DNA of 64,000 nt from Arthrobacter crystallopoietes (lineage in GTDB: Bacteria; Actinomycetota; Actinomycetes; Actinomycetales; Micrococcaceae). The stretch covers positions 2,542,001 through 2,606,000 of the forward strand of contig NZ_CP018863.1 of assembly GCF_002849715.1 (NCBI RefSeq), written 5' to 3'. Made by a program: the position numbers and the translations under genes. The notes under the pieces are model-generated. The model worked only from the letters and a program-made list of their open reading frames with translations, was not told the origin of the DNA and ran no database searches. Positions 6,185 through 28,363 of this stretch are shown in pieces. Numbering within the stretch: position 1 is the stretch's first letter; the number at the start of each line of letters is the position of its first letter.

Positions 6185-6217
6185 TTTTCTGAAAGTACTA
6201 GCAGCGTGGAGAAACCT

Positions 6218-7036
6218 GTGAGCACCCCTGACATCGCTTGTGAAGCCGTTCCCGCCCCGAAGCAAAGCGGCCTGTCCCGCATCGGACTCATCGTTCCCAG
6301 CTCCAACACCACCATGGAGACCGAACTGCCCGAACTGTTCCGCCGGCAGACCGAAGCCACCGGCCACAAATACACGTTCCACTCCGCCCGTGCCGGCATG
6401 AAGAACGTGAACAAGGAAGAACTGCTGGCCATGGTGGGCAAGGCTGCGGATTGCGCCGCGGCTGTCTCCGACGCCGACGTGGATGCCATTGCCTACGCCT
6501 GTCTGGTTGCCGTGATGGCGCAGGGCACGAACGCCCATGTCGGTTCCGAAGCGACCATCGCCCAGGCGGCAGAGGACAACGGGCACCCGGCAGCAGTCAC
6601 CAGCAGCGCCGGCGCACTGGTCCGCACTCTGCAGGAGATGGGCGTTGAAAAAGTCGCCATGGTCACGCCCTACATGAAGCCGCTGACCCAGATGGTCCGC
6701 GAGTACATCGAGGGCGCAGGCATTACCGTTCTCGACGCCGTCAGCCTCGAGGTCGCCGACAACCTCGCCGTCGGTTGCCTGGATCCGCAGAACCTGCCGG
6801 AGATCGCACGGAACCTGAAGCGCGACGGCGCCGACGCGATTGTGCTGTCTGCCTGCGTGCAGATGCCGTCACTGCCGGCCGTGCAGGCCGTCGAAGACGA
6901 GCTCGGACTGCCGGTCATCACCGCCGCGACGGCGACCGCCTACGAGATTCTCAAGTCACTGGGCCACGCGCCCGCCATCACCGGTGCCGGCAGCCTGCTG
7001 TCAGGTGCAGGTGTCAAAGTCCCCGCACAGATCTAA
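6218..7036 (+). CDS. maiA: Maleate cis-trans isomerase
   Basis: Predicted 272-residue cytoplasmic enzyme converting maleate to fumarate without a cofactor, in the Asp/Glu racemase/arylmalonate decarboxylase superfamily. The two catalytic cysteines of the family are present in their typical settings: C95 in YACLVAVM and C213 in LSACVQMPSLP. The N-terminal GLIVPSSNTTMETE block (residues 23-36) and the middle VTPYMKPL (149-156) also match the known Nocardia enzyme, whose length is about 250 residues. The GTG at 6218 is chosen because GGAGA precedes it by five bases; the open frame extends 98 codons further up but runs through the promoter region. Only 12 bases separate it from the carrier gene, so they form an operon. 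Confidence 0.88.
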   Translation: MSTPDIACEAVPAPKQSGLSRIGLIVPSSNTTMETELPELFRRQTEATGHKYTFHSARAGMKNVNKEELLAMVGKAADCAAAVSDADVDAIAYACLVAVMAQGTNAHVGSEATIAQAAEDNGHPAAVTSSAGALVRTLQEMGVEKVAMVTPYMKPLTQMVREYIEGAGITVLDAVSLEVADNLAVGCLDPQNLPEIARNLKRDGADAIVLSACVQMPSLPAVQAVEDELGLPVITAATATAYEILKSLGHAPAITGAGSLLSGAGVKVPAQI

Positions 7037-7048
7037 ACGGTATCCGCC

Positions 7049-8425
7049 ATGTCATTGTCACTCATTGCATTCGCCGTCCTCATCGGCGCATTTGCCATCG
7101 GCTCCTTCACCCGCATCAACGCCGGTCTCATCGCGACCGTTGCCGCCTTCGGCGTCGGTACGCTGGTGGCGGGCCTGTCGGTCAAGGACGTCATCGCGCA
7201 GTTCCCCGCGGGGCTCTTCTTTATCCTGGTCGGGGCAACACTGCTCTTCGCGATCGTCCGGATCAATGGAACCATCGACCTGCTGGCCTATTGGGCAGAG
7301 TTGCTCGCCGGAAACAGAAGGTTCCTGGTCCCGGTCCTGATGTTCCTGCTGACCGCCGCCCTGGCATCAGCGGGTGCATTTACCCCGGCGGCCATCGCCA
7401 TCGTTGCTCCGGTGGGGCTGGCGCTCGGGTCCAGGTTCGGCATCAGCACCCTGTCGATGGGTCTTGTTATTGTCCAGGGCGCCAACGCCGGTGCCTTTTC
7501 GCCGGTGAATCCCTTCGGCGTTCTCGGCAACGTCATGCTCGACGACGCCGGCGCCGCAGAGGATTCGCTCAAACTCTACGTGTACTGCTTCCTGTTCAAC
7601 GCGGTACTGGCAGTCATCGCGTATCTGCTGATCGAAAGGATCATGAAGAAGCGCGCTGCCCGGGCGGGAGACTCCGGATCGGAAACAAGCCTGACCCCTG
7701 CACCCGGGGATGCCGGGTCGACTGGAGGTGCACTCCCGTCCGGATCGGGTACCGGAACTGCTGTCTTGACGGCACCGGCACCCACCGGCGTTGTGACCCC
7801 TGCAGCCGGACGTCCTGAAAAAGTTGCTGCAACGCCTATCCGGATCCTGACGCTGGCCGGAATCGGCGCACTGCTGGTCCTGACCACCGTCTTCGGGCTC
7901 GACGTCGGCGTAGCTTCCCTGGTTGTCGCCCTGGCCCTGATCGTTGTCAATCCCGGCGTACAGAAGCCCGCCGTCGAGAGTATGCCCTGGTCGGCCATCA
8001 TCCTGGTCACGGGCATCGTGACCTACGTGGGTATGCTGGAGGAAATGGGCGCCTTGGAAGAGCTCCAGGCAGGAATCGCCGGCCTGGGCAACAGCAGCGT
8101 TGCTGCCCTGATTACCAGCTACGTGGTCGGCATCGTCTCGGCGTTCGCTTCAACCACCGGCACACTGGGAGTCATCAGTCCCATCGTTACTCCTATCGCA
8201 CTTGATCCGATGCTTACGCCCATCGGTGTTGTCACCGCAATTGCGATCAGCTCCTCGGTGGTGGATGTGAGCCCGATGTCCACCAGCGGTGCATTGCTTA
8301 TGGCTAGTGCCCAGCCGAAGGACGAGCGCATGTTCTTCCGCGCACTGCTGCTGTGGGCCATCGCCATGATCGTGGTCGTGCCACTGCTGGTGTGGTTCAT
8401 CTTCGTCCAGCTCGGCATCGGTTAG
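7049..8425 (+). CDS. MatC-like dicarboxylate carrier, probably for maleate
   Basis: Predicted 458-residue inner-membrane carrier, paralogous to the one at 3008-4369: same MatC N-terminal domain (FTRINAGLIATVAAFGVGT), same Ala/Thr/Pro/Gly-rich central linker (about residues 208-262), same C-terminal SSVVDVSPMSTSGALLMAS. It follows the maleate isomerase by 12 bases with no strong ribosome binding site of its own, which suggests translational coupling. The context implies uptake of maleate or a related C4 diacid; the assignment of substrate is inference. A strong bidirectional hairpin follows the stop codon. Confidence 0.82.
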   Translation: MSLSLIAFAVLIGAFAIGSFTRINAGLIATVAAFGVGTLVAGLSVKDVIAQFPAGLFFILVGATLLFAIVRINGTIDLLAYWAELLAGNRRFLVPVLMFLLTAALASAGAFTPAAIAIVAPVGLALGSRFGISTLSMGLVIVQGANAGAFSPVNPFGVLGNVMLDDAGAAEDSLKLYVYCFLFNAVLAVIAYLLIERIMKKRAARAGDSGSETSLTPAPGDAGSTGGALPSGSGTGTAVLTAPAPTGVVTPAAGRPEKVAATPIRILTLAGIGALLVLTTVFGLDVGVASLVVALALIVVNPGVQKPAVESMPWSAIILVTGIVTYVGMLEEMGALEELQAGIAGLGNSSVAALITSYVVGIVSAFASTTGTLGVISPIVTPIALDPMLTPIGVVTAIAISSSVVDVSPMSTSGALLMASAQPKDERMFFRALLLWAIAMIVVVPLLVWFIFVQLGIG

Positions 8426-8445
8426 GCCGTATAAGAAGCCGCATA

Positions 8446-8484
8446 AAAAGGGGAGGGCGTCCGGATCAGACCCGGACGCCCTTT
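8446..8484. terminator. Bidirectional rho-independent terminator
   Basis: GGGCGTCCGG (8455-8464) and CCGGACGCCC (8472-8481) form a perfect 10-base stem with a seven-base loop, preceded by AAAAAGGGGA and followed by TTTC. It lies between the convergent carrier gene (ends 8425) and the flavin reductase-like gene (ends 8496), so it can stop both transcripts. Confidence 0.85.
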
Positions 8485-8495
8485 CGCCGTCGTTC

Positions 8496-9122
8496 CTAGA
8501 GCGCGGAGCCGGGACGGAAGTGCCCGGGCCAGTCCGCCTTGCGTATCCGTTTGATCTCCCGCACCTCGCCCATGGTTCCCCATTCGTCCAGGCCCAACCG
8601 GGACAGCGGCGCGAGCTGGTCTATCCGCGGGTGCATTCCGTCCAGAACATCTGTCGTCACCACAGCATGGGTGACGACGCCGAAAACCAGCGTGCAGTCG
8701 CCCATCGGCATCAACTGGTGGAGCTTGCATTCCAACGCCACCGGCGATTCCTTGACCCGGGGCGGCTTCACCGTGAAGCTCGGCTCACGCGTCAGCCCCG
8801 CGGCGTCGAACTCGCTGACGTCGGGCGGGAAGTTGGTTCCTGTCGCGTTGACCTCGGCCATCAGATGGGCGGGGGTCAGATGGACCACGAATTCCTCCGA
8901 GGCCCGGATGTTGCGCAGTGAATCCTTTTCGCCCACGGACGTGAACTGGACAATCGGCGGATTCACCGAGGCAACGGTGAAGAACGAATGCGGTGCCAAA
9001 TTGTCCACGCCCTCCGGCGATGTACTCGACACCCAAGCAATCGGCCGGGGGACCACCACAGCGGTCAACAAGCGGTAGAAATCGCGTGACGATATTTCTT
9101 CAGGGCTAAAGTCCGTGCGCAT
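8496..9122 (-). CDS. Flavin reductase-like FMN-binding protein
   Basis: Predicted 208-residue FMN-binding split-barrel protein (DIM6/NTAB type). The N-terminal RPIAWVSSTSPEGVDNLAPHS stretch (read in pieces, around residues 26-46) is the flavin-binding signature; the segment FTVASVNPPIVQFT follows. Such proteins reduce FMN/FAD for partner monooxygenases or act as flavin-dependent oxidoreductases. The ATG at 9122 begins the conserved part; upstream codons overlap the divergent promoter. It is divergent from a Baeyer-Villiger monooxygenase, but those enzymes use bound FAD and NADPH, so a direct partnership is not required. Confidence 0.75.
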   Translation of the reverse strand: MRTDFSPEEISSRDFYRLLTAVVVPRPIAWVSSTSPEGVDNLAPHSFFTVASVNPPIVQFTSVGEKDSLRNIRASEEFVVHLTPAHLMAEVNATGTNFPPDVSEFDAAGLTREPSFTVKPPRVKESPVALECKLHQLMPMGDCTLVFGVVTHAVVTTDVLDGMHPRIDQLAPLSRLGLDEWGTMGEVREIKRIRKADWPGHFRPGSAL

Positions 9123-9262
9123 AACTCCACGATAGCTACCGCAGATGAGGCTTGGTGCAAACCAGATCGGACTCCCGGTCACTGAGAATCTCCCTGTGGT
9201 GCTGGTCTCTAACTTCGGATAGTGGAGGCAAGTCATTCGACAGTCTCGCTGAAGGAGTCATC

Positions 9263-10972
9263 ATGCAGAACGCTGCGCAAACCAACCCACAAAAGTACGA
9301 CGCAGTGGTAGTGGGCGCTGGCCTGGCCGGTGTTTACGCCCTTTACAAGCTGCGGAACCAAGGATTGTCGGTCCGTGTACTCGAGGCTGGCAGCGGAATC
9401 GGCGGCACCTGGTACCACAATCGCTATCCCGGTGCCCGGTGCGATATTGAATCGCTGGACTATTCCTACTCCTTCGACAATGAACTGCAGCAGGATTGGA
9501 GCTGGACCGAACGGTATGCCTCGCAGCCGGAGATCCTGCGCTACATCAACCACGTGGCGGACCGGTTCGACCTGCGCGAGCACATCCAGTTGGATACCAA
9601 AGTCACTTCAGCGGTTTTCGACGATGCTACGAACACGTGGACCGTCGGCACCGACGCAGGTGAGCACTTCGAATCACGGTTCGCGGTGATGGCTACGGGC
9701 GTCTTGTCCGTTCCCCAGGTCCCGTCCACCACGGGTCTGGAGGACTTCCAGGGAGAGTGGTATCACTCAGGGGACTGGCCGCATGAGGGCGTGGACGTTC
9801 GCGGCAAGCGTGTCGGTGTGATCGGCACGGGCTCGTCCGGAACGCAGATGATTCCCATTCTGGCGGACCAGGCCGATGAGCTGCTGGTATTCCAACGGAC
9901 ACCCAACTTCTGCATGCCCGCGCAGAACTATCCGATCAGGCCGGAAGTGGAACAGGAATGGAAGGCCACCTATCCGGAGCGCCGCGCGTTCGCGCGCCAG
10001 TCGGGCTTCGGGCACAACCAGGTCACCAACCCGAAGTCCGGCAAGGAAGTTTCGGCGGCGGAACGGCTGGCTGAACTCGAGAACCGCTGGGACCTGGGCG
10101 GCCTGTATATGATGCGCGCGTTCAAGGACATTCTGGTGGACAAGGAAGTCAACGACGAGGCCTCCGAGTTTGTCCGCGGGAAGATCCGCAGCATCGTTGC
10201 CGACCCGCAAACCGCTGAAGCTCTTTCCCCTCGCCACCTGCCGATCGGTACCAAGCGGTTGTGCTCCGGCACCGGCTACTACGAGACGTTCAACCGGGAA
10301 AATGTCACGCTGGTCAACGTCAGGGAGTCGCCGATCGATCGGATTACCGCCACAGGAGTGCGTACCGCGGACGCTGATTACGACGTCGATGTCCTCGTCT
10401 TTGCTACCGGTTTCGATGCAATGACCGGCGCCCTAAACCGGCTCAATCCGGTGGGTCGGGACGGACGACAGTTGCGCGACCACTGGGCCGCTGGACCGCA
10501 GACCTACCTCGGCCTGACTGTTAGTGGATTCCCCAATATGTTCATCATCGCCGGCCCCGGCAGCCCCTCGGTATTCAGTAACATGGTCACCTCCATCGAG
10601 CAGCACGTGGAGTGGATTGCGGACGCCATCGCCCATCTGGACGGCAACGGGTTTGACACCATCGAGGCGAGCCCGGAAGCGGAGGCCGAATGGGTCCGGC
10701 ACGTGAACGAGGTGGCCAACAAAACCCTTTACCGCGACTCGAAGGCAACGTGGTTCTACGGCGCCAACATCCCGGGCAAGCCGGTGGTTTTCATGCCGTA
10801 CGTCGGTGGCGTAGGAAATTATTGGAACCGGATTACCGCACTGGCCCAGGCCGGATACACCGGCTTTCTGCTCGACGGCAGGGAGAGCGGATCCGAACCC
10901 ACTGAGCCCGTCGAGCTCGCCAACCAGGTCCACGCGGCAGGGCAGGAGGAAAAGGCGGCAGCTCGTGCCTAG
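9263..10972 (+). CDS. Baeyer-Villiger flavin monooxygenase
   Basis: Predicted 569-residue FAD- and NADPH-dependent enzyme that inserts one oxygen next to a ketone to give an ester or lactone. It carries both Rossmann motifs, GAGLAG (18-23) for FAD and GTGSSG (188-193) for NADPH, and between them the Baeyer-Villiger fingerprint FQGEWYHSGDWP (162-173) with all key residues. The length is normal for cyclohexanone-type enzymes. The ATG at 9263 sits five bases after GAAGGAG; the longer open frame upstream lacks family similarity. The downstream esterase and SDR could hydrolyse the ester and oxidise or form the alcohol, so a cyclic ketone or terpenoid/steroid-like substrate is inferred. Confidence 0.9.
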   Translation: MQNAAQTNPQKYDAVVVGAGLAGVYALYKLRNQGLSVRVLEAGSGIGGTWYHNRYPGARCDIESLDYSYSFDNELQQDWSWTERYASQPEILRYINHVADRFDLREHIQLDTKVTSAVFDDATNTWTVGTDAGEHFESRFAVMATGVLSVPQVPSTTGLEDFQGEWYHSGDWPHEGVDVRGKRVGVIGTGSSGTQMIPILADQADELLVFQRTPNFCMPAQNYPIRPEVEQEWKATYPERRAFARQSGFGHNQVTNPKSGKEVSAAERLAELENRWDLGGLYMMRAFKDILVDKEVNDEASEFVRGKIRSIVADPQTAEALSPRHLPIGTKRLCSGTGYYETFNRENVTLVNVRESPIDRITATGVRTADADYDVDVLVFATGFDAMTGALNRLNPVGRDGRQLRDHWAAGPQTYLGLTVSGFPNMFIIAGPGSPSVFSNMVTSIEQHVEWIADAIAHLDGNGFDTIEASPEAEAEWVRHVNEVANKTLYRDSKATWFYGANIPGKPVVFMPYVGGVGNYWNRITALAQAGYTGFLLDGRESGSEPTEPVELANQVHAAGQEEKAAARA

Positions 10973-13588: not shown

Positions 13589-15301
13589 ATGAACAGCAAG
13601 CCCGTGCAATGCGACGTTCTTGTCATCGGGTCCGGTGTTGCCGGACTGGCGGCAGCGATCAAGGCGGCGAAGCAGGGCCTGAGCGTGATCGTGGCCGAGA
13701 AGGAGCAGTATCTTGGCGGGACCACCGCGATTTCCGCGGGCTGGGCGTGGGTTCCCGGCAACAAGCAGGGTGTGGCCCAGGGCGATACCCGCGAAGAGGC
13801 GGAGACTTATTTGAGGAACCTAGCCCCGGATACCTTCAATGAGGCAGGGGTGAAGCAGTTCCTGGACACCGTGCCGGAGACCCTCGAGTTCTTCGAGAAC
13901 GAGACCGAGGTCAAATTCGTCTACCCGGAAAAGGCCCCGGATTACCAGATGGATTTGCCCGGTGCGCGGATGTCGGGGCGGGCGATCATCCCGCAGGACG
14001 TGGACGCCCGCATTCTGGGGGACAAGCGCCTGCTGATGCAGCCGTACATGAGTTCCTACACCGTGTTCGGCTACATGCCGCAGGTCGGCCCGGACATCAA
14101 CGAGTTCTTCCACGTGAACCAATCGCTTAAATCCTTCACCTACGTAACTAGGAAGCTGCTCCGTACCTGGATCGACACCGCCCGGTATAAGCGAGCGGTG
14201 CTGCGCTCGAACGGAAACTCGATGATGACCCGAATGGTCAAGAGCGCAGATGACCTGGGCGTGCGGCTATGGGTGAACAGCCCGGCGCTCTCCCTGCACA
14301 AGAACGACGACGGCGTCGTCGACGGGGCGGCGCTCGGGGGCGTACACGCCGGCCGTGTGCACGCGAGACTCGGCGTCATCCTCGCGGCCGGCGGTTTCTC
14401 CGGCAACAAGGAACTGCGCCGGCAGTACTTCCCGCATGATCCCAACGGGGACAACCACTTCACGCCCACCATCGGGCACGGCGGCGATGCCGTCACTCTG
14501 GCCCGTAAGGCCGGCGGATACATCGACGACTCCGTCTACTCCGTCGGGTCCTGGGCCCCGGTGACGGTTTTCAAGTACCTCAACGGCAGGCAGCGATTGT
14601 TCCCGCATCTGCGGGCCATCGGGCTCCCGGGGCTGATCGCGGTGGACCGCGACGGCAACCGGTTCGGCAACGAAGCGCTGAGCTACCACGACTTCGGCGG
14701 ACAGATGCTTGCCCATATGAAGGGCCAGACCGAGACCTCTGCGTGGGTGATCGCCGACGCGAAGACCATGCACAAATACGGTATCGGCTACGCCAAACCA
14801 TGGCCAATGCCGCGCGGCTATTTCTACAAGACCGGTTACCTCGTCAAGGGCGACTCCCTGGCGGATCTGGCGCAGAAGATCGGTGTCGATGCCGACAATC
14901 TGAAGGCCACCATCCGGGACTTCAACAAGGGCGCCGATGCCGGCGAAGACCCGGCCTTCGGCCGCGGTTCCACGCTGTACAACAACTTCCGCGGCGACAT
15001 GGAACACAAACCCAACCCGAACCTGGCCCCACTCGATGAGGGCAAGTTCTATGCAGCGAAGATCCAGATGGGTGACCTCGGTACCTTCGCCGGGCTCGGC
15101 ATCAACGATCGCTCCGAAGTAGTGACCGAGGCAGGCGAAGCTGTGCCGGGACTGTATGCAGTGGGCGCTGCCGCGGTGTCCGTCTTCGGTGGCGGCTACC
15201 CCGGCTACGGCTCCCACATCGGCCCGGCCCTCGTCTTCGGCTACCGCGCCGGACGCGACATCGCCAAACACGCCGCAGAACGCGGCGCCACCCGCATCTG
15301 A
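13589..15301 (+). CDS. FAD-dependent dehydrogenase (KstD / fumarate reductase flavoprotein-like)
   Basis: Predicted 570-residue flavoprotein. It has the N-terminal dinucleotide fold GSGVAG (14-19), a GGTTAISAGWAWVPGN substrate-side loop (43-58) and the C-terminal GGGYPGYGSHIGPALVFGYRAG flavin-binding stretch (read in pieces), which together mark the FAD-binding-2 family that includes 3-ketosteroid dehydrogenases, fumarate reductases and urocanate reductases. Length suits the ketosteroid-dehydrogenase side. No heme or signal sequence is seen, so it is cytoplasmic and likely donates electrons to quinone or another acceptor. ATG 13589 follows AGGAG. It lies 82 bases after the SDR in the same direction. 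The substrate is not determined; a cyclic ketone desaturation is plausible. Confidence 0.8.
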   Translation: MNSKPVQCDVLVIGSGVAGLAAAIKAAKQGLSVIVAEKEQYLGGTTAISAGWAWVPGNKQGVAQGDTREEAETYLRNLAPDTFNEAGVKQFLDTVPETLEFFENETEVKFVYPEKAPDYQMDLPGARMSGRAIIPQDVDARILGDKRLLMQPYMSSYTVFGYMPQVGPDINEFFHVNQSLKSFTYVTRKLLRTWIDTARYKRAVLRSNGNSMMTRMVKSADDLGVRLWVNSPALSLHKNDDGVVDGAALGGVHAGRVHARLGVILAAGGFSGNKELRRQYFPHDPNGDNHFTPTIGHGGDAVTLARKAGGYIDDSVYSVGSWAPVTVFKYLNGRQRLFPHLRAIGLPGLIAVDRDGNRFGNEALSYHDFGGQMLAHMKGQTETSAWVIADAKTMHKYGIGYAKPWPMPRGYFYKTGYLVKGDSLADLAQKIGVDADNLKATIRDFNKGADAGEDPAFGRGSTLYNNFRGDMEHKPNPNLAPLDEGKFYAAKIQMGDLGTFAGLGINDRSEVVTEAGEAVPGLYAVGAAAVSVFGGGYPGYGSHIGPALVFGYRAGRDIAKHAAERGATRI

Positions 15302-15500
15302 ATCCAGCTTGGAGATGGTAGCCAGCAGTGACATGAGCCACAAATATTCTCGGTCACCGGGAATCACTCTTCGTACTCGGAGCTTGAGATCCCACTCTGG
15401 AAGAAGTTCCGCAGAACAGCAAAGTCCGGCCCTTGTGGCCATCAGTTGGGGCCGCAGATGCACAGTGGCATCCGCGGGTAAGAACAAACTTGGAGGAAAC

Positions 15501-16481
15501 ATGAGCGTTAAGGCTCTGAAGAAGTGGGCCGGCGTCGGCATGGCGGCCGCATTGGTCGCCGGTCTTGCTGCCTGCGGCTCGGACGGCGAAACCGGCACAC
15601 CCGCCGCCGGCACTGGTGACGGACCGGAACAGGCGACTATCGTCGTCGGCACCCAGACCTTCGCCGAGCTGGCCCCTCTGCACATGGCCATCGAGCAGGG
15701 GATTTTCGAAAACCACGGGCTGACCGTGGAACTGGCAGATTCCACCGGTGGCGGTGCCGGCCTGATCCCGGGCATGGTGGCCGGTGACATCGACGTGGTG
15801 TACAGCAACTATGTCTCCTTGATGCAGGGGGCTGACAAGGGGCTGCCGCTGCAGGTCATCCGCGAGAATGACCGTCCCGGTGTGCAGGCGCTGTATGTGA
15901 CGCCGGAGAGCGGGATCAAGGAGCCCGAGGACCTGGCCGGCAAGACCATCGCCGTCAACGGCCTGGGCAACATCATGGAGCTGACCTCCCGTGCGGTCCT
16001 TGAATCCCACGGCGTCACGGACGCAAAGTTTGTGGAGATCCCGCCGCCCAACATGGAAGCTGCGCTTGCACAGGGTCAGGTGGACGCCGCCTGGCTGGTT
16101 GAGCCGTTCGTGACCATTGCTACCGGCACCATCGGCGCCACGCCCGTGGTCAGCGCCTTTGAAGGACCTACCGAGAACGTCCCGGTGGCCGGCTGGGCCG
16201 TGCGGACGGACTTCGCCGAGCAGAACCCGAAGACCGTGTCCGCCTTCGTGGACGCGATGGACGAGGCCATGGCCATCGCCGTGGATGACGAGCAGGCCGT
16301 CAAGGACTCCCTGCTGACCTTCACCGAGATTCCCGAAGAAGTGGTGGCCAAGCTGAATCCCATCTCCTTCGCCGAGAAGTCAGATTTCAGCAAGCTCTCG
16401 GATCTGAACGAGATCATGCTGGACCAAGGGCTCATTGAGAAGCCAGTGGACCTTGAGGAGTTCGTCGCCGAGGTCCAGTAG
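15501..16481 (+). CDS. ABC transporter substrate-binding lipoprotein (NMT1/SsuA-like)
   Basis: Predicted 326-residue lipoprotein. A short charged start, hydrophobic segment and lipobox LAAC (cysteine about residue 24) mark membrane anchoring on the outside of the cell. The mature part has the NMT1/taurine-type fold: APLHMAIEQGIFENHGLTVEL early, GGGAGLIPGMVAGDIDVVYSN next, and EPFVTIATG near residue 200. Such proteins bind sulfonates, nitrate, pyrimidine precursors or aromatic acids. ATG 15501 follows GGAGGAA. No permease or ATPase gene is next to it, which is odd for this family. A terminator-like hairpin follows. Confidence 0.85.
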   Translation: MSVKALKKWAGVGMAAALVAGLAACGSDGETGTPAAGTGDGPEQATIVVGTQTFAELAPLHMAIEQGIFENHGLTVELADSTGGGAGLIPGMVAGDIDVVYSNYVSLMQGADKGLPLQVIRENDRPGVQALYVTPESGIKEPEDLAGKTIAVNGLGNIMELTSRAVLESHGVTDAKFVEIPPPNMEAALAQGQVDAAWLVEPFVTIATGTIGATPVVSAFEGPTENVPVAGWAVRTDFAEQNPKTVSAFVDAMDEAMAIAVDDEQAVKDSLLTFTEIPEEVVAKLNPISFAEKSDFSKLSDLNEIMLDQGLIEKPVDLEEFVAEVQ

Positions 16482-18279: not shown

Positions 18280-20835
18280 CTATCCGGTCGGCGCCGGTGC
18301 CGGTTCATCAGCTGGAGCCGGCGCGGGCTCCTGCTCTGGTGCAGGTGCGGGTTGCGGCGTGCTGGTGGTTATCGGCGCCGGGGGAGAAGTAGCCGTTCCG
18401 GGCTCCGGTTCGCCGCTAGGCTCTTGTGCGGGTGCTGGTTGAGGCTCGTTCTCTGGGTCCGACGGAGGTATTGCATCTGACGACGACGTCGGGTCAGAGG
18501 TGCCAGGCTCAGGCGGCGGATTGGTGGATCCCGGCGCCTCCTGAGGCTCACCGTCTGAGTCTTGCCCCGGAGTGGGCTCAGTGTCTGGCTCTACCTCTGT
18601 GTCAGCATCGGATTCCGCTTCAGTGCTGCTGCTCCCGCCGCTGGTGGCAACGTCCTTTTCTATGATGCCGAGAATGCGCGCCTTGTAGTCGTTCAGGCGG
18701 CCTTGGATCTGGTCCAGGGGAACATCCTCGAGCGACCGGCCGTAGGCGGCTATCTCCTCCCACAGCGCCGCGAGCTCATCCATACCTGCATCGCTCAACG
18801 GACCGTCAAGGGTGAGGACAAGCTGGCTGGCCAGGGCGTAGGTGAGGCATTCGACGCAGTTGTAGTTGGCCGCTGCCGAAAGGTTTTGCGGCACCACAAC
18901 GTCGGCCTGCCCCAGGACCAGGACAACTTGGAATCCGACGGCGACGGCGGTGCAGTCGCGGCAGGAGGCAAAGGCGTAGGCCTCGTTGGTGGTATCCACC
19001 GGCCCGTCATCGGCCCAGACCAGGGCGAATGCGACGTCGTAAACAACCGATCCGTCCTCGGTGTTGACGGCAAGGGCCTGGTTGCCGTCTTCCTCGGGAG
19101 CCAGCGGTTTGTCGAAGGGGAAGACCCAGGCCGGGGGCGCATCTGCGACGGCAGGTTCAACAACGGTGGCGTCAGAGCCGCCGTCGTTCGCTTGATCTTC
19201 ACTGGTTTCCGCGGTGCCGGTCTCTGTCCCCCCGGCCTCGTTGTTGCGGGGAACGAGGACCATCGCCAGTTGCGGATTCTCCGCGGTGGGGAGGTCAGTA
19301 CCGGACGCCCAGGCCGTGACAGTTTGGCCTGCCCGACCCTCGGTAAGTCCGGCGGAGGAAGCCGGGGTGAGGGAAGCGGTTGCATCTAACAGGGTTCCGC
19401 GTTCATAGGGCTGGACCGGGCGGTAGGCTCCATCGTCGGGCCACCAGGCCCAGGCAAGACCGGCGAGAACGGCAGCCGCGGCGGCAATGGCGGTAGCGCG
19501 CCGAAACGGCCGGCCACGGGTTTTCGTCCAGACCGCGGTGGCGAGCTGCCGGGCCAGGCGCAGCAGGATGTAGGCGATGCCGAGGATGGGAAGTGCGACG
19601 GCGGTGATGGCCAGCACCCGCACGGCCATGCCAGCCAGGTCGCCGTCGGAGCCGGCCTCCGCCAGCAGCCGCTGTTGTTCCAGGACGCTGGCCCAGGCCG
19701 TGCCCAGGACCCGGGGAAGCGAGACCACCATCATGACCAGGCAGAACAGGAGCAGCGGAACCGTGACCAGGACCCACACGGTCACGACGGCCCTGGCCCA
19801 CGGTTTGAGCAGCTTGGGCTCGGGGTCGGACCAGCGCCAGGGCAGCAGCCCGATCAACGTGGGCTTGATCCGCTGGAACAGGTCGGGAACCCCGGTCGCG
19901 TCGGCGAGGATGTGGTAGCCGTCGAATCGGACCAGGGGCAGCAGTTGGCGCACCATCTGCAGTATCTGGGTCACCACCACCAGCAGCAGCGCGTCGAAAC
20001 CGGTGAGCCACCAGATGCCCATCGTGCCCACCACGACGATGGCGTTGAAATACAGGCCGCCCAGATCCGTGCGGATCCGACCGCCGCGTCCGAGCCGGTA
20101 GGAGTCCGTGACGTCGGTATAGAAGGCAGGCCAGATCAGGTACAGACCGACGCCCATGGCGCCCGGGGTTGCTCCGCCGCGACGGGCCGCGGCGGCATGG
20201 CCGAACTCGTGGAAGCCGGCCGAGAGGATGGTGATGGCGAAAACCAGGAGCAGCAGCCCGGGGTTGGCGAAGGCTTCATGCGTCGCCGACCCAAGGCCCT
20301 TGACCAGCAGCACCCACCAGCACGCCACAAGGAAGGCGGCTGTTACGGGCAGCGCGATCAGCGGATGGAACAGCGCGGCGAACGGAGCCGTGAGCTTTCG
20401 GGTCCGTGCAGGATCGGTGACCGTGTACCGGAAGCGCATGCCCAGCAGCGGACTGGCTTTCCTGACTTCGGGCTGTGTGCCGTCCGCCAGCCGCAGTAGT
20501 CCCAGCGGCAGCAGCTGCTTCTCAATCAGGGTCTGCACGTTGCCGGCAGTGATCAGCCTGCCGCTCCGGGCGCTGGCATGTTCAGCGACCTGCTTGAGGC
20601 TGCGGGAGCCGTCCACTCCCGCCAGAACCGCGTACAGCAGGGGAGTGAGCTGGATGGTCTGGCCGTCTGCGCGCCGGACCAGTGCGGGCGGCTCCCGGTA
20701 GCCGGAACCCTGTGCCGGTCCGAGGAGCTGCACGCCGTCGGCCAGCGCCGGGACTTCCACGGAAGCGGGTGCAGCGGACGCGGCATCGGGCAGCGGGCCG
20801 CCCGTGGCTGGCGGCCCGCTCGGACTCATGCTCAT
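18280..20835 (-). CDS. PqqD-like/M50 membrane zinc metalloprotease with large extracytoplasmic domain
   Basis: Predicted 851-residue multi-domain membrane protein. Residues 45-120 resemble a PqqD-like winged helix (RRADGQTIQLTPLLYAVLAG, then LITAGNVQTLIEKQLLPLGLL), the fold used to hold peptide leaders. Residues 150-465 are membrane helices with the zinc site HEFGH (209-213) and a likely third ligand in RFDGYH (D305), as in site-2/M50 peptidases and the YydH group. After the last helix (about 447-466) comes an outside domain with two CxxC pairs, C625/C628 and C660/C663, then a Ser/Pro/Glu-rich tail from about 732. It starts seven bases after the stop of the repeat protein gene at 20843-21592, so the two are translated together. 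The repeat protein is the best guess for a substrate. Function unknown. Confidence 0.8.
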   Translation of the reverse strand: MSMSPSGPPATGGPLPDAASAAPASVEVPALADGVQLLGPAQGSGYREPPALVRRADGQTIQLTPLLYAVLAGVDGSRSLKQVAEHASARSGRLITAGNVQTLIEKQLLPLGLLRLADGTQPEVRKASPLLGMRFRYTVTDPARTRKLTAPFAALFHPLIALPVTAAFLVACWWVLLVKGLGSATHEAFANPGLLLLVFAITILSAGFHEFGHAAAARRGGATPGAMGVGLYLIWPAFYTDVTDSYRLGRGGRIRTDLGGLYFNAIVVVGTMGIWWLTGFDALLLVVVTQILQMVRQLLPLVRFDGYHILADATGVPDLFQRIKPTLIGLLPWRWSDPEPKLLKPWARAVVTVWVLVTVPLLLFCLVMMVVSLPRVLGTAWASVLEQQRLLAEAGSDGDLAGMAVRVLAITAVALPILGIAYILLRLARQLATAVWTKTRGRPFRRATAIAAAAAVLAGLAWAWWPDDGAYRPVQPYERGTLLDATASLTPASSAGLTEGRAGQTVTAWASGTDLPTAENPQLAMVLVPRNNEAGGTETGTAETSEDQANDGGSDATVVEPAVADAPPAWVFPFDKPLAPEEDGNQALAVNTEDGSVVYDVAFALVWADDGPVDTTNEAYAFASCRDCTAVAVGFQVVLVLGQADVVVPQNLSAAANYNCVECLTYALASQLVLTLDGPLSDAGMDELAALWEEIAAYGRSLEDVPLDQIQGRLNDYKARILGIIEKDVATSGGSSSTEAESDADTEVEPDTEPTPGQDSDGEPQEAPGSTNPPPEPGTSDPTSSSDAIPPSDPENEPQPAPAQEPSGEPEPGTATSPPAPITTSTPQPAPAPEQEPAPAPADEPAPAPTG

Positions 20836-20842
20836 TCAGGGA

Positions 20843-21592
20843 CTATTGTTCGAGATCGGACTGCTGGTCGGCGCTGGCCTCGGCGGCACCGTCGATCTGC
20901 TGGTTGATGATGGCGTCCTGCTGCGCCACCGCGGTCGCCTCGCTGTCCACCGAGCCGATGTTGGCGGCCACCGCGGCGTCGATGGGCGCGGCAACGTTGG
21001 CGTTGGCAGCAACAGCGCCGTTAATGGGGGCAGCAATGTCGGCGTCCGCGGCCAAATCCACGTTTACATTGAGCAGGTTCCCGTCAAGCGTGGGCCCAAG
21101 GTCCTCGGTGATGGATCCGGCATCGGGCAGCGTGCCGTCGGGCAGTAGCGCCGGGTCAGTGGCTTCCTGTGCGCTGACGCCCTCCTGCAAGGGCGCAGCA
21201 TCGCCGACGGCGGCGTCCGTTCCTGCAGCGGAGCCCGCAGTTGTGTCGGCGCCCTCCACCGTGTCGTTGCTTTGGTCGATGGTGCTGTCCTGCGTGGATT
21301 CGGCGGTTGCATCGGCCGTGATGCCCTGGTCGATGATGACGCCCTGATCGGAGAGCGCCTGCGAGGTGGAGCCGGACGAAAGAATGTTGGCCGAGGCAGC
21401 GGCATCAATCGGCGCCGCTACGTTGGCGTTAGCCGCCACGGCCAGATCAATCGGCGCGGCTGCATCGATGGCCAAGTCGAGATCCGCATTCAGATCGAGA
21501 ATGGACGCGACTTCCTTATCCGGCAGTGCGGTGCCGGACTGGGATTCGAGTTCCTCCGGCGACAGCGGGGTGAGGTCCTGTTCATTGCTCAT
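20843..21592 (-). CDS. Acidic Ala/Asp-rich repeat protein, probable partner of the M50 protease
   Basis: Predicted 249-residue acidic protein without signal peptide or membrane segment. It contains two copies of a unit of about 72 residues, near 36-108 and 176-249. Each copy has the core VAANANVAAPIDAA, a following ANI, and a spaced Gln/Ile tail (IIxQxI, then QxS). Between them is a low-complexity acidic linker. The N-terminus carries ALPDKEVASIL (about residues 22-32), which looks like a leader-type recognition motif. ATG 21592 is preceded by GGAGA; a TTG one codon earlier is also possible. Only seven bases separate it from the protease gene. I suspect a substrate or exported precursor recognised by the protease's PqqD-like domain; no homologue can be named with certainty. 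Confidence 0.75.
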   Translation of the reverse strand: MSNEQDLTPLSPEELESQSGTALPDKEVASILDLNADLDLAIDAAAPIDLAVAANANVAAPIDAAASANILSSGSTSQALSDQGVIIDQGITADATAESTQDSTIDQSNDTVEGADTTAGSAAGTDAAVGDAAPLQEGVSAQEATDPALLPDGTLPDAGSITEDLGPTLDGNLLNVNVDLAADADIAAPINGAVAANANVAAPIDAAVAANIGSVDSEATAVAQQDAIINQQIDGAAEASADQQSDLEQ

Positions 21593-21904
21593 CAAAATCT
21601 CCGTCTCCGGCGCAAAGCGCCATCCGTTCCGGCCACTGGCCCAAACATGCCGATTCCTGCTAAATAGCCCGGAGATGCCCGAGCCCTAATTATTGGAAGC
21701 ATACTGATGAATCCTTCCATTGTGGCAGCACAGGCAGAAATTGTGTGGGGCCACCGCGATAACGCCACGATCGCGGCGGCCCCATTGGCAGGCTTCGCCC
21801 TATCTAGGATTTACGATGGCGCTTGTGTTCGCCGGCTTAAGCTCGACACTCTCGAAACATCCCAATCGCGGCGCCTCACTCGTGCCCGGGGCGACGAAAC
21901 GTCC
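21593..21904. other. Intergenic region, island edge
   Basis: This 312-base stretch lies between the start of the repeat protein gene and the end of the DUF2075 helicase gene, both read leftwards. It should hold the promoter of the repeat protein/protease pair. A small GGCGC-AAA-GCGCC hairpin occurs near 21609-21622. Base composition falls from GC-rich to near 50% around 21680-21720, marking one edge of the foreign-looking island. No tRNA or clear attachment repeat was found. Confidence 0.5.
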
Positions 21905-23935
21905 TCACGAAATTGTCTTCAAACCCGCGCTGTCCAGATAATCGGCATTGGAGGTGTACCAACTCGTATTTCGTGTGTGATCGTCGTCAGATCCATAGGG
22001 AAGATAGATGACCATACCTTGGCGCGCTCTCGTCAGCAGGACTCTATAGGCGTTTCGGAGGAAATCTCGGTCCACATTCTGTCTAATTTGTTGCCACCGG
22101 GCGCCTGCGAACTTCCAATGCTCGAAGTGCGATCCATTCCATCTGTAGTCAATATCCCAAGCCACAATTGTCCAATCGAGTTCCAGGCCCTGGACGTCGA
22201 ACTCCGTTCCGACGAGTTCCAAGGCGTGAGATGAACGAACGTCTGCGGGCTCGTTGAGGAACCATACGGCAGGATCGATCTTGTTCTTCACGAAGATTCC
22301 CTCAGGAAGGAGCCGGTACGCCTTCGAAGATGCGAGAAGACCGCTAGATTCTGTCGGTTTCCGTTTATTTTGAATCCAAGTCTTTGCCGCTGTTAGATCG
22401 CGCGCGACAACGATAGGAAAAAGTTCATGGGTCCGATAAAAAATCTCTGCCGCTGCGTCGGGATCGCCATGAACAAGATGGTGTACCCCTTCTGAAATCA
22501 GTTCAGATCTAAACGAGCGCTGGCTCGTTCTAAGGTGCAGGGTGGGTGAGACTTCCACGTTGACACTGGAATAGTGAGCGAGGTCCACGGGAGTCCCCAT
22601 CGATTTTGGATCTTCCACCTCTGGGGCCACATAGATTTTCCAGTTGGAATGCTTACGATCGAGCGCTTCGATCCAGCCGTCAAGTCCGGCTTCGCCTGCG
22701 TTTATTTCCTGGCCACCACCTACTAGGGCAACTATGACCGCCCAATCATCATGACGATCCATCACGCTTATTAGAAATTCAGGCTCAGACTGGTCGAATC
22801 CTGCAAGTCGCTTCTTGGTTTGCATGAACTTTGAAGTCTGTTCGCGATTCCATGCCCTTTGAGCTTCATCAAAGATGACGACGTTCTCGACAGGAGGGCG
22901 TGTATCGCGCACGTACTCATCCCGGAAGTGATGGATGTTCTGAACGTAAGCAGCGGCACGGCGCTGGCTGTGGGCTTTTGTGCATCCTAGGCGCCGAGAT
23001 TCATCTCTCGCCAACGCCTCTTGTATCACAGTAACCAGTGGGCCATTTCCAGACAGGTACACTGCGTGCTCGGTGTCCGATGCCTTTGTCATGGTGGCGA
23101 TATTCAAGCCGACCAGAGTCTTGCCAGCACCGGGGACTCCTGTAACGAAAGCTATGCACTTATCTCCGCTCATGCGAGCGGAGTGAATAATGCTTTGAAC
23201 GTATTCGGAAGTTTCGGCCAGCCCAGCTTCGTCTGCTTCCGAGCGTGTGATGTCTTTGACGTCGTGCCCAGCGTAAAGAGCTTGCGCGGCCTGGACAATG
23301 GTCGGCGACGGATGGTAGCTGCCATCGGCCCAGAGTTCCGCAGCGACCAAAGTCTTGGCCTCTGCTTGTGCGGGGATCATGGTCAAAATTGAGTGAAGAT
23401 TGTTTCCGTTGCTTTTGATTGGCGCCGCTATAGTCTCGGGGTCCCAAGTTATGTTTACACTCGTATTGGGAGCCAGCGTCGCGACAAGTACTGGCACAAT
23501 CGGGAGATTGTGGCTGCTCTTGTGAAAATACTTGAGATCCAACGCGTACCCGAATGTTTGCTCGAGGTCCTTGGACTCGAAATGGCCTGCGCCGACCTTG
23601 AACTCGATTACAAATATAAAACCGTCGAGGACAATGACAGCATCCGCTCGTCGTCCCATCCGTGGGATCAGGAACTCTAGAAAGATGTGGCCATGTCGAA
23701 GGTCTTGGAGCTGTTCCTTGAGCATCCTGATTTCGCTTGCCCACGCTTCTGCCTGTTCAGAGTTGGTGTCAAAGCCGTGAAAGTAGGTTAGTTGACCTAC
23801 AACAGTCGTGTCCTCTGTCCGCAAGAACTCGTCAACTGAGCTGCTGTACAGGGATCGTTGCCCTCGCCCTCTGACGACGATGCTTCGGGCATCCGGAACT
23901 TGATTTTGGCGGCCTGATAAGACAGGGAGCATCAC
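21905..23935 (-). CDS. PD-(D/E)XK nuclease-like plus DUF2075 (Schlafen-3-like) helicase protein
   Basis: Predicted 676-residue soluble protein. Residues about 85-140 contain ADAVIVLDGFIFVIEFKVG (D98, E111-x-K113), the core of a PD-(D/E)XK nuclease, with a following QTFGYALDLKY helix. Residues 255-650 form a DUF2075 helicase/ATPase: Walker A GVPGAGKT (266-273), Walker B VVIFDEAQRAW (352-362) and a C-terminal NAYRVLLTRARQGMVIYLP arginine motif. It starts at GTG 23935 (or ATG 23932), overlapping the stop of the XRE gene by up to four bases. Base composition is clearly poorer in GC than its neighbours, suggesting transfer. A role in phage or plasmid defence is inferred from domain make-up and location. 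Confidence 0.82.
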   Translation of the reverse strand: MMLPVLSGRQNQVPDARSIVVRGRGQRSLYSSSVDEFLRTEDTTVVGQLTYFHGFDTNSEQAEAWASEIRMLKEQLQDLRHGHIFLEFLIPRMGRRADAVIVLDGFIFVIEFKVGAGHFESKDLEQTFGYALDLKYFHKSSHNLPIVPVLVATLAPNTSVNITWDPETIAAPIKSNGNNLHSILTMIPAQAEAKTLVAAELWADGSYHPSPTIVQAAQALYAGHDVKDITRSEADEAGLAETSEYVQSIIHSARMSGDKCIAFVTGVPGAGKTLVGLNIATMTKASDTEHAVYLSGNGPLVTVIQEALARDESRRLGCTKAHSQRRAAAYVQNIHHFRDEYVRDTRPPVENVVIFDEAQRAWNREQTSKFMQTKKRLAGFDQSEPEFLISVMDRHDDWAVIVALVGGGQEINAGEAGLDGWIEALDRKHSNWKIYVAPEVEDPKSMGTPVDLAHYSSVNVEVSPTLHLRTSQRSFRSELISEGVHHLVHGDPDAAAEIFYRTHELFPIVVARDLTAAKTWIQNKRKPTESSGLLASSKAYRLLPEGIFVKNKIDPAVWFLNEPADVRSSHALELVGTEFDVQGLELDWTIVAWDIDYRWNGSHFEHWKFAGARWQQIRQNVDRDFLRNAYRVLLTRARQGMVIYLPYGSDDDHTRNTSWYTSNADYLDSAGLKTIS

Positions 23936-24183
23936 TGGTCCACTCCATAAACGAGTTCACTCAGCGGGATACCAAGACCATGGGATAGGCGCAGAAGTGA
24001 TGTAAGGCTAGGGTTCCGTTCCCCGCGCTCAACTGCGCCTACGTAGGTGCGATGGAGCCCACACCGCTCCGCGAGCTGTTCTTGCGAAATCGAAAATTGC
24101 CTACGTATTCGTTTTAGGTTGTCGCCTAGAGCACGTAGGGCAGAGTCGTAATTAGCTATATGAGTCGAATTGTTTATGGGCAC
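23932..24183 (-). CDS. XRE-family helix-turn-helix regulator
   Basis: Predicted 83-residue DNA-binding protein, essentially one Cro/C1-type helix-turn-helix domain: LGDNLKRIRRQFSISQEQLA then CGLHRTYVGAVERGERNPSL, then LLRLSHGLGIPLSELV. Small XRE proteins fused in operon to a toxic or nuclease gene usually repress the pair. Its stop overlaps the start of the helicase gene. Upstream, GCTACT (24203-24208) and AGTAGC (24229-24234) form an inverted repeat that also contains two direct ATAAGT copies and a TTGACT, a likely promoter/operator. Confidence 0.85.
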   Translation of the reverse strand: MPINNSTHIANYDSALRALGDNLKRIRRQFSISQEQLAERCGLHRTYVGAVERGERNPSLTSLLRLSHGLGIPLSELVYGVDQ

Positions 24184-24623: not shown

Positions 24624-25525
24624 TTAAGAATTCCACACGCCGTAGCCGTTCTGATGGAGTGTATTGTGCCAGTCAGAGCGCTTCTTCGTAGCCCATTCTT
24701 CATCGATGCTGAAGGCGAAGGTTAACTCCCTTCAATGTATTGAACAAAACCAAGGACGTGTCGAATCCTCTGTGTTGCGAATGCGCATAGAGGCCATATT
24801 TAGCAGTTCCACGTATATGCAACTGAAGGTCATGTCTGAACGTAGAAAGCAGGCGCACCTGTTCGCCGTCGACTAGAAGGCCAAGTACTATCTTTCGGGC
24901 TCCTGGCATGATGATCCGTGTCTTTTTGTGGTGCAATAGGAAACCGTGTCTATGAACGGCGTTGCGTACCTGCTGGGCCAAGGCCGCTCCTTAGCCTCTA
25001 TCGAATGTCGTTCCAGCAGAAAAATGATGTCATCGGAATATCGCGTGTAAACTAAATTGCTTTCGGCCGCCAATGCGGCTAGGTCTGCATCCAGGTCCTT
25101 AGCTATGGCATTCGCGAGGGCACCACTGGTCGGCGCGCCCTGAGGTAAGAAACCGGGTTCCTTGCCTGAATAGGCCGTAATCGGACCTCGGACGCTGCCT
25201 GTCGGATCCCGTGTTTGATGTTGACGAGTCGTGATGCGTGCGAGTTCGAAAGAGACAAGCTTCGAGTATCCCAATCCCACAAATAGGCGGTACACTCTTT
25301 TTCAGAATTGGAACCAAAGAAATCGTGTAAATCGAACTTGACTAGCCACGTGGCGCCGAGATGTTATTCGGCGCACGAACGGATGGATTTCCTTTCTGAT
25401 AGGCAAAGCTGCTAGTTCCCTGTTTTAAGCTGTTGAGCGCGTTATCCAGTAGCCACCGCTGCACTTTCATTAGGCCCTTCTCCGGTGCGGAGATTTTTCT
25501 GAACGATCCCGGGTTTTTCTCCGCT
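24624..25525 (-). pseudogene. Reverse transcriptase (retron/DRT-like), broken by several frameshifts
   Basis: Conserved reverse transcriptase blocks appear in order on the minus strand but in changing frames. Frame a (25521-25342) reads RKISAPEKGLMKVQRWLLD. Frame b (25363-25300) reads LVKFDLHDFFGS, the motif A region. Frame c (25295-24888) reads GYSKLVSFELARI, GFLPQGAPTSGALAN and YTRYSDD, the catalytic YxDD-type motif. Frame d (24981-24700) reads KKTRIIMPGARKIVLGLLVDG and RGFDT. Frame e (about 24720-24624) reads FAFSIDEEWATKKRSDW and then stops. At least four frame changes are needed; one falls in an A5 run (25298-25302). It is a decayed or mis-sequenced gene of the small bacterial RT class linked to retrons and defence. 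The true N-terminus is not found. Confidence 0.8.
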
Positions 25526-27040: not shown

Positions 27041-28363
27041 ATGTCAGAAACCCTGAACCTCGAGGCCGGGGCCACCCGGCAGATCACCGACAAGGAGGCG
27101 ATGAAGGTCTCCATCGGCGCCCTCATCGGCACCGCAATGGAGTGGTACGACTTCTTCCTCTTCAGCGCGGCGGCGGCGCTGGTGTTCAACGTGCAATACT
27201 TCGCCAACGAGAACGCCACGGCGGCGGCGCTGGCTTCCTTCGCCACCTTCGGCGTGGGCCTGGTGGCCCGTCCGCTGGGCGGCATGTTCTTCGGCGCGAT
27301 GGGTGACAGGATCGGCCGGCGCAAGACCCTGATGGTCACCATTGTGGGCATCGGCGCGGTGACCGGGCTGATCGGCCTGCTGCCGACGTACGCCGCCATT
27401 GGCATTGCCGCTCCGGTGCTGCTGGTGCTGCTGCGCGTGTTCCAGGGCCTGTTTGTCGGTGGGGAGTGGTCCGGCGCGATGACCATTGTGGTGGAGAACG
27501 CCCCGCTGGAGCGCCGTGCCCGCTACGCCGCCATGCCGCAGATCGGTTCGCCGATCGGCACCATCCTGTCCTCCGGCGGCTTCTTCCTGATGACGCTGTT
27601 CTTCTCGCAGGAGAGCTTCAACTCGTTCGGCTGGCGCATCCCGTTCCTGGCCGCCATCCCGATGCTCCTGATTGCGCTCTACATCCGCAGCAAGCTCGAA
27701 GAGTCCCCGGTCTTCACCGAGCTGATGGAGCACGACCAGGTGGAGAAGGCTCCGATCCGCACCACGCTGCGCGAGTCCTGGAAGCACATCATCATCGGCA
27801 TGGCCGCGGCCCTGCTGGGCGTCGGCGGCTTCTACCTGGTCACAGCCTTTGTGGTCTATTACGGCGTGGCCATCCTGGGTTACTCGCCTCGGCTGATGCT
27901 GCTGGGCGGCATGATCGCCGCCATTGTGGAAATCCCCATCCTGATCTTGGGCGGACGGCTGGGCGAGCGGTTCGGTTGCAGTCGCGTGATCCTGGTGGGC
28001 GGCATCGCCTCCGCCGTGGCCGCGGTGCCGTCCTTCCTGCTGGTAGCCAGCGGCAACCCCGTGCTGGTGGTCATCGGCATGGTGCTCGCGGTGGCGACGC
28101 TGTCCTTCCCGTACGCGGCCTCCGGCACCGTGCTGACAGGCCTGTTCCCGGCCCGCACCCGCTACACCGGCGTGGGCTTTGCGCAGAACACCGCCGGCAT
28201 GCTCTCCGGCTTCGTGCCGCTGCTGGCCACGGGCATGGTGGCCGCCGCGGCAAACCACTGGTGGCCGGCCGCCGCGATGCTGGTGTTCCTGAGCCTGTTC
28301 ACCGCCGTCGCCGGTGCCGTGGCCCCGCGCATGAGCGTGGACCTGCCCGGCTTCAAGCACTAA
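27041..28363 (+). CDS. MHS-family MFS transporter (metabolite:H+ symporter)
   Basis: Predicted 440-residue, 12-helix symporter of the inner membrane, in the ShiA/ProP/KgtP branch of MFS. The branch mark GTAMEWYDFFLFSAAAAL in helix 1 (about residues 31-48) and the loop FFGAMGDRIGRRKTLMVT (near 85-102) are clear. Such proteins import organic acids, betaines or similar compounds with protons. ATG 27041 follows GGAGG by four bases. It leads a run of catabolic genes (ThDP enzyme, amidohydrolase, carbamoylase) and should import their substrate. A paralogue begins at 48263. Confidence 0.88.
   Translation: MSETLNLEAGATRQITDKEAMKVSIGALIGTAMEWYDFFLFSAAAALVFNVQYFANENATAAALASFATFGVGLVARPLGGMFFGAMGDRIGRRKTLMVTIVGIGAVTGLIGLLPTYAAIGIAAPVLLVLLRVFQGLFVGGEWSGAMTIVVENAPLERRARYAAMPQIGSPIGTILSSGGFFLMTLFFSQESFNSFGWRIPFLAAIPMLLIALYIRSKLEESPVFTELMEHDQVEKAPIRTTLRESWKHIIIGMAAALLGVGGFYLVTAFVVYYGVAILGYSPRLMLLGGMIAAIVEIPILILGGRLGERFGCSRVILVGGIASAVAAVPSFLLVASGNPVLVVIGMVLAVATLSFPYAASGTVLTGLFPARTRYTGVGFAQNTAGMLSGFVPLLATGMVAAAANHWWPAAAMLVFLSLFTAVAGAVAPRMSVDLPGFKH

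Follow-up and report, generated by a model that had tools for sequence, protein, structure and literature searches.

Why should an intramembrane protease be encoded immediately downstream of a large, acidic repeat protein that bears no recognizable export signal? This question is raised by a 64,000-nucleotide stretch of the Arthrobacter crystallopoietes genome (contig NZ_CP018863.1, positions 2,542,001 to 2,606,000; hereafter the window), in which the two genes lie in tandem at 18280..21592 on the minus strand. We postulate, with a probability of about 0.62, that they constitute one leader-guided maturation and release system, resembling the pathways of ribosomally synthesized and post-translationally modified peptides (RiPPs) and apparently free of modification. 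The site-2 protease would cut and release strand-rich repeat peptides, and its outer domain would serve as receptor or template. A preliminary description of the locus had proposed a partner recognized by the PqqD-like domain and processed or delivered by the protease, an interpretation that the analysis supports in its predictions.

Architecture of the gene pair

The precursor-like partner gene (20843..21592) encodes a protein of 249 amino acids from its ATG; starting at the TTG at 21595, which is in frame, the length would be 250. Seven bases (20836-20842) separate it from the protease gene (18280..20835, 851 amino acids from an ATG), and all features of the pair described here are on the minus strand. 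The partner is acidic and rich in Ala (22%) and Asp (12%), with an isoelectric point of about 4 and one Lys or Arg against 44 Asp or Glu, and inspection of its N-terminus by eye reveals no signal-peptide-like stretch. Following a leader recognition motif, TALPDKEVAS (residues 21-30, 21503..21532), it consists of core unit 1 (residues 31-107, 21272..21502), a variable low-complexity linker (residues 108-171, 21080..21271) and core unit 2 (residues 172-249, 20846..21079). Unit 1 is strand-rich and holds SQALSDQGVIIDQ and ADATAESTQDSTIDQ, while unit 2 holds SEATAVAQQDAIINQ and AEASADQQSDLEQ; the strands in both are predicted with low confidence. The two units are 51% identical across 78 residues, so the repeat is not a product of chance. 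The linker is gapped and poorly conserved in both family alignments, and region 113-186 has a predicted confidence (pLDDT) below 50. In these respects, namely the spacing of the genes, the composition, the two repeats and the absence of a signal peptide, the preliminary description holds. Its spelling of the leader, ALDPKEV, has to be corrected to ALPDKEV.

Fourteen close relatives of the partner are strongly conserved, with 69-87% identity to the window protein. TALPDKEV is invariant among them, and residues L23, P24, K26, E27, V28 and S30 are invariant in an alignment of 18 sequences. Even with E values up to 10 allowed, Pfam offers no family for the partner, and none was found in NCBIfam; where source databases name its homologs, they are called 'peptidoglycan-binding' or 'peptidoglycan bound' protein, or hypothetical. 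Used as queries in their own genome, the partner and the protease each return a single significant match, namely themselves.

The protease is a fusion of a cytosolic, a membrane and an extracytoplasmic part. Its N-terminal domain (residues 29-118, 20482..20751), predicted to be cytosolic, resembles PqqD and the RiPP recognition element (RRE). In the predicted structure, residues 36-108 adopt the order that marks this fold, three strands followed by three helices, with a pLDDT of 85-94 by block, and solved RRE/PqqD domains rank among the best structural matches. The PqqD-like N-terminus of the preliminary description is thus borne out by predicted structure and fold matches, but not by Pfam, in which the protease has no PqqD match. 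The M50/site-2-protease membrane core (residues 158-465, 19441..20364) comprises seven predicted transmembrane helices. It contains the zinc motif HEFGH (residues 209-213, 20197..20211), already recognized in the preliminary description, and a second zinc-ligand motif, FDGYHILAD (residues 304-312, 19900..19926). H209, E210, H213, D305 and D312 are invariant in all 26 aligned rows, and D305 is taken to be a zinc ligand after the M50 family. The core therefore combines an HExxH motif in a membrane helix with a distant Asp ligand, as expected of site-2 proteases, and its best structural matches are SpoIVFB, mjS2P and RseP. The Pfam M50 score is 13.7, under the gathering score of 27.2, and no match by sequence was obtained in the PDB. 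Relatives are mostly named 'hypothetical protein' or 'putative peptide zinc metalloprotease protein'.

Nearly 390 residues, absent from the preliminary description, follow the membrane part. They include a CxxC...CxxC domain (residues 566-735, 18631..19140) with C625, C628, C660 and C663, and a Pro/Glu/Ala-rich tail (residues 736-851, 18283..18630) that is disordered by composition and has a pLDDT below 50. In 26/26 rows, counts of Lys and Arg predict a cytosolic RRE and an extracytoplasmic CxxC domain. VIA-align matches of unrelated chains to residues 677-735 and to single helices were given no weight.

A conserved leader and a third module across actinobacteria

Protein searches scored at least 4407 relatives of the protease and at least 3596 of the partner. 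Among the 120 matches listed, most relatives with a named organism belong to Arthrobacter or Pseudarthrobacter, and the best of these matches (87% identity) bears the source name Arthrobacter crystallopoietes. When genomes of the family were drawn and searched with the partner, it was found in 4 of 41, its own included, and the protease adjoins it in all three other positive genomes out of the 40 others drawn. The partner is therefore patchy at the family level, but paired with the protease where it occurs.

To follow the pair further, we used 20 actinobacterial loci (L002 to L021), two on Streptomyces plasmids and 18 from a genome scan that gave at least 24 loci; the other six from the scan are distant non-actinobacterial M50 loci. 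A same-strand open reading frame (ORF) bearing the leader lies upstream of the protease in 20/20 of the actinobacterial loci, in one to four copies each, and these loci span Actinomycetes, Acidimicrobiia and Thermoleophilia. The co-occurrence anticipated in the preliminary description is thereby observed among the actinobacterial loci and, starting from the partner, in the partner-positive genomes of the family. The leader reads ALPDKEVAS in the window and, for example, ELLPGREALG, EELPDREAMS or ELLPERAVLS at other loci. It is found 31 times in 59,970 upstream strand-bp against 13 times in 576,100 elsewhere, and 0.07 occurrences would be expected by chance per 3 kb. As the regular expression was composed after the loci had been inspected, this enrichment describes the motif and is not a blind test of it. 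Upstream of the distant non-actinobacterial proteases the motif is present in 0/6 loci, two of which (L025 and L026) hold less than 2 kb of upstream sequence. Among loci of the two-unit type, partner and protease are separated by 6-8 bases in L011, L013 and L016, whereas they overlap by 4 in L012. Five further loci have gaps of 24-70 bases, as measured from script-chosen start codons.

The leader can be aligned over 27 precursors (window unit 1 and 26 of the 31 precursors, with L011, L012, L014, L015 and L021 omitted), while the cargo differs between types. Two-unit precursors of about 200-460 amino acids occur in the window, Nocardioidaceae, Saccharothrix, Phycicoccus, Mycobacterium and others. 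Tandem single-unit precursors of about 68 amino acids are present in Acidimicrobiaceae (L005) and in an actinobacterial metagenome-assembled genome (L007), with four tandem genes in each. Precursors of about 70 amino acids are seen in Streptomyces, Streptacidiphilus and Actinacidiphila, Gly-rich ones in L003 and L004, and yet another type in Frankia (L018). In L003, L004 and L018 the leader is kept while everything after it changes completely. A strand-turn-strand motif, [SA]-x-A...Q...[ILV]-x-Q, a pattern devised after viewing the sequences, is found in 22/27 aligned precursors, and the five that lack it come from these same three loci. The 464-residue precursor of L012 (6589-7983, plus strand) has an inter-unit linker that matches the Pfam beta-flower and DUF3659 repeats; extra beta modules may therefore sit between core units.

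The CxxC domain constitutes a third module of the system, and the preliminary designation of a 'minimal pair' does not hold in this respect. In L002 and L005-L009 the module is a separate ORF just downstream of the protease, with a hydrophobic, signal-like start, and L010 has a separate, diverged copy whose Cys are partly lost. In L011-L014, L016, L017, L019, L020 and L021 it shares one open frame with the protease. The link to the separate ORFs was made by eye and checked for one of them, BLASTP of P0001 against that CxxC protein giving an E value of 1e-12. The four Cys are invariant in 16 aligned module copies (L021 and the diverged L010 omitted), and profile comparison points to a putative repeat of about 35 residues within the module. 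L003, L004 and L018 yielded no copy of it, and L015, which ends at a contig boundary, is not assessable. Hence, the module is present in 16/16 assessable loci with an Ala/Asn/Gln-rich core, against 0/3 with other cores. With a stand-alone copy as query, 582 relatives were scored; among the best 120 of these no Pfam domain was found, and those named are mostly 'putative peptide zinc metalloprotease'. In L011, from Pseudarthrobacter, a second CxxC-domain ORF (6206-7060, plus strand) lies upstream of the precursor, beside the protease-fused copy. In L021, a Streptomyces record, protease and CxxC domain form one open frame (7112-10465, plus strand), yet they are separate genes in the L002 plasmid copy, whose precursor is near-identical; this indicates a recent fusion or frame change.

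We compared precursor cores with CxxC modules by profile scoring, using a composition-corrected background because the first version had used a standard one, together with 400 shuffles, a reversed profile and non-cognate controls; the shuffle counts are uncorrected for the number of tests. Streptomycetaceae cores score 13.80 against the Streptomycetaceae module over 43 ungapped columns (shuffle mean 6.28, standard deviation 1.03; reversed profile 6.43), a value reached by 0/400 in both shuffles, and 10.31 against other modules (1 and 4 of 400; reversed 8.79). Against non-Streptomycetaceae modules, acidimicrobial-type cores reach 10.35 (1 and 4 of 400; reversed 7.48), the first window-type unit 10.81 (6 and 9 of 400; reversed 6.80) and the second 11.10 (3 and 4 of 400; reversed 6.03). 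The Streptomycetaceae module shows no match to the acidimicrobial-type cores or to either window-type unit (94-244 of 400). With all 16 modules pooled, the scores of these three are weaker, 8.78-9.54 (6 to 21 of 400). In hhalign, Streptomycetaceae cores match their own modules with a P value of 0.004. Taken together, the sequences provide moderate evidence that core and CxxC module have a shared or co-evolved repeat, with a resemblance that depends on the clade.

Beyond the protease, the CxxC module, the precursors and ORFs overlapping them, no gene family recurs in more than four of the 21 loci, according to an all-against-all comparison of ORFs of at least 90 amino acids from the 20 loci and the window region.

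Proposed mechanism, known relatives and alternatives

From the analogous proteases of the daptide (MpaP) and epipeptide (EpeP) pathways, we infer how leader binding, cleavage, export and assembly might proceed in the present system. The 249-residue protein would be a precursor, its first 30 residues or so serving as leader and the remainder, two repeat units rich in strands, as cargo. The LPDKEVAS motif of the leader may be held by the cytosolic RRE domain, whereupon the site-2 protease core would cut the precursor at or near the leader. The cargo would then exit through or at the membrane, as proposed for EpeP, and the outer-face CxxC domain, with a repeat resembling that of the cargo, could receive, anchor or template the released repeats.

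Several observations weigh against this reading. The structure model of the partner is of low confidence (pLDDT 51.6), albeit with abundant strands in both units, and returns no Foldseek match; the CxxC domain is likewise poorly modelled in the predicted protease structure. The RRE-fold matches are mixed with unrelated winged-helix-like domains of similar Z, and the protease scores far under the NCBIfam cut-offs of its characterized relatives. At 249 amino acids, the partner is unusually large for a RiPP precursor. With regard to the shared repeat, the scores carry uncorrected shuffle counts, Streptomycetaceae cores stand barely above the reversed profile when scored against other modules, hhalign assigns the Streptomycetaceae pair a probability of just 8%, and the pooled comparison of cores with CxxC modules lacks significance (probability 0.4%, E 0.16). 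Nor do the 20 loci represent independent cases, since several come from Streptomycetaceae. Within this family, moreover, a sigma-70-type factor (L002, L004, L010 and L021) and a helix-turn-helix (HTH) regulator (L002, L006, L009 and L010) each recur in 4/21 loci.

The closest known relatives of the protease are MpaP and EpeP/YydH, and, measured by their cut-offs, it belongs to neither family. Against the daptide MpaP/DapP family NF041824 it reaches 94.6 bits (E 6.6e-27, residues 50-323) under a cut-off of 300, and four of its relatives reach 77-108 bits. For the epipeptide YydH/LiaK proteases, likewise M50 membrane proteases, the score is 34.4 bits against the NF058609 cut-off of 225; the LiaK model (246 positions) aligns to residues 195-315, which represent the protease core and not the RRE. 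The homology to MpaP and YydH/LiaK could instead reflect a RiPP pathway of the daptide or epipeptide kind that serves antimicrobial action or signalling, with modifying enzymes elsewhere in the genome and a two-unit protein that yields bioactive peptides after leader removal. According to the respective papers, MpaP removes the leader as an intramembrane peptidase that depends on its RRE (PMC10036551), daptides are cut after an ELExxxxx motif (PMC12338566), and EpeP is thought to both cleave and export EpeX (PMC10885120, PMC7614699). The predicted structure of the Arthrobacter protease suggests the same order, an intramembrane site-2 protease preceded in the same chain by an N-terminal RRE. 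PMC10036551 further states that daptide clusters each encode several precursors, as do several of our loci in tandem, and names a PF13561 oxidoreductase class for Bacillota daptide clusters; a PF13561 short-chain dehydrogenase lies 7 kb from the pair, on the other strand. The same paper defines daptide precursors by an ELExMEAP motif and an invariant C-terminal Thr. By eye, this leader is similar in style to the E-L-L-P-G-R-E-A of the present family, and four L005 precursors end in Thr. The window precursor, in contrast, carries TALPDKEVAS and ends in Gln, and precursors of the family are repeat-rich and as long as 464 amino acids. Neither a DapB/C/D/M set beside the pair or clustering over the 21 loci, nor any other modifying enzyme or ABC exporter clustering in more than four of them, was found among ORFs of at least 90 amino acids, and aminotransferase, methyltransferase and radical-SAM families, the last including the epimerase expected of an epipeptide locus, have no match among 13 flanking window ORFs tested. 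The cores are acidic, Ala/Asn/Gln-rich repeats that remain strongly conserved in the 14 close relatives. To our knowledge, neither daptide nor epipeptide pathways include a conserved extracytoplasmic CxxC module whose repeat is similar. We therefore regard such a peptide pathway as unlikely. Compared with the PqqD/RRE systems TbiB1, TruD and ThcOx, the presumed partner is here a large repeat protein, and the Pfam PqqD model does not detect the domain.

The M50 fold is also common to SpoIVFB and RseP, which act in signalling, and the partner might accordingly be soluble and serve as an adaptor or inhibitor, gating the action of a site-2 protease on another membrane protein. The sigma-70-type genes would suit such regulated intramembrane proteolysis. 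Within the fetched stretches, however, they lie kilobases away in differing positions and on differing strands (L002 4130-4729, minus; L004 12703-13617, plus; L010 12283-14526, minus; L021 847-1647, minus), and no such gene forms a cluster at any of the remaining 17 loci, which include the window. Sigma-70-type genes are common in Streptomycetaceae, so their presence at four such loci could be due to chance. A leader motif, an RRE and tandem partner copies fit a substrate better than a regulator, as does the variation of the cores by type under a constant leader, and a regulatory role appears quite improbable. Still further down the scale, and hardly credible, is the view that two surface-protein genes without relation to each other happen to share an operon, their leader similarity being convergent low complexity. 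Both proteins are acidic with low-complexity stretches, and the name 'peptidoglycan-binding protein' of several partner homologs would agree with it, but a motif kept in every locus over three classes, against the small number expected by chance, and the leaders of L003, L004 and L018, which stay while the rest of the partner changes, argue against it.

Returning to the leader-guided release system that we favor, its logic of leader, RRE and site-2 protease is already known; undescribed, as far as the open-licence literature shows, are the large repeat cargo, a locus apparently free of modifying genes and an outer domain that shares the repeat, and no description of the present system was recognized among the titles and abstract starts of open-licence papers. 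If this reading is right, RRE-guided recognition also sorts and releases large structural repeat proteins, beyond decorating small peptides. A more tentative extension, which we consider rather doubtful, is a route for exporting repeats and seeding a fibre or coat from them outside the cell, the cargo stacking on a CxxC nucleator of the same repeat, either protease-fused or secreted. The curli proteins CsgA and CsgB form secreted repeat assemblies with strand-turn-strand repeats and spaced Gln. The precursors share these two traits, and a membrane-side protein with a similar repeat could be the nucleator; unlike curli, they have no signal peptide, and leader and protease would take the place of CsgG. 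No curlin was recognized among them: the curlin spacing pattern occurs in 0/27 precursors, and the scanned proteins have no Pfam curlin match. Should the fibre or coat route be true, a curli-like assembly logic would operate via RiPP machinery across Actinomycetes, Acidimicrobiia and Thermoleophilia. The Arthrobacter system consists of two genes and is small enough for direct testing.

Genomic surroundings

On one side, the pair is flanked in the window by genes for an alpha/beta hydrolase, a short-chain dehydrogenase, FAD enzymes, an NMT1-type substrate-binding protein (15156-16481, plus strand) and a glyoxalase. The other side holds an SLFN-type helicase with an HTH protein, a PucR-type regulator and a major facilitator superfamily (MFS) transporter (27041-28363, plus strand). 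The preliminary description had noted neither a radical-SAM gene nor a transporter nearby. The former part agrees with the flanking ORFs tested, whereas the MFS transporter and the NMT1-type protein contradict the latter; both are encoded on the strand opposite to the pair and show no sign of linkage to it.

Mobile and defence elements were also considered. A phage origin was rejected, the protease having no match in 50,697 phage records, and PADLOC matches neither the protease nor the partner. In 72,556 plasmid records the partner has no match, and the protease is found in three, the two Streptomyces plasmids taken as loci and one from Muribaculaceae, in which 22% of the query is covered at 31.6% identity. 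The window also contains a candidate phage-defence pair (21905-24183, minus strand), composed of a 676-residue SLFN-g3 helicase (Pfam PF09848, E 8e-73; PADLOC candidate PDC-S41, 872 bits) and an overlapping HTH protein. A 135-residue ORF (24888-25295, minus strand), possibly a remnant, has a partial match to reverse transcriptase that, at 24.0 bits, falls short of the cut-off of 29.6. In L004, from Streptomyces sp. MA5143a, a small secreted protein is encoded about 0.5 kb downstream of the protease (10113-10436, minus strand) and bears what we take to be a chaplin-like motif.

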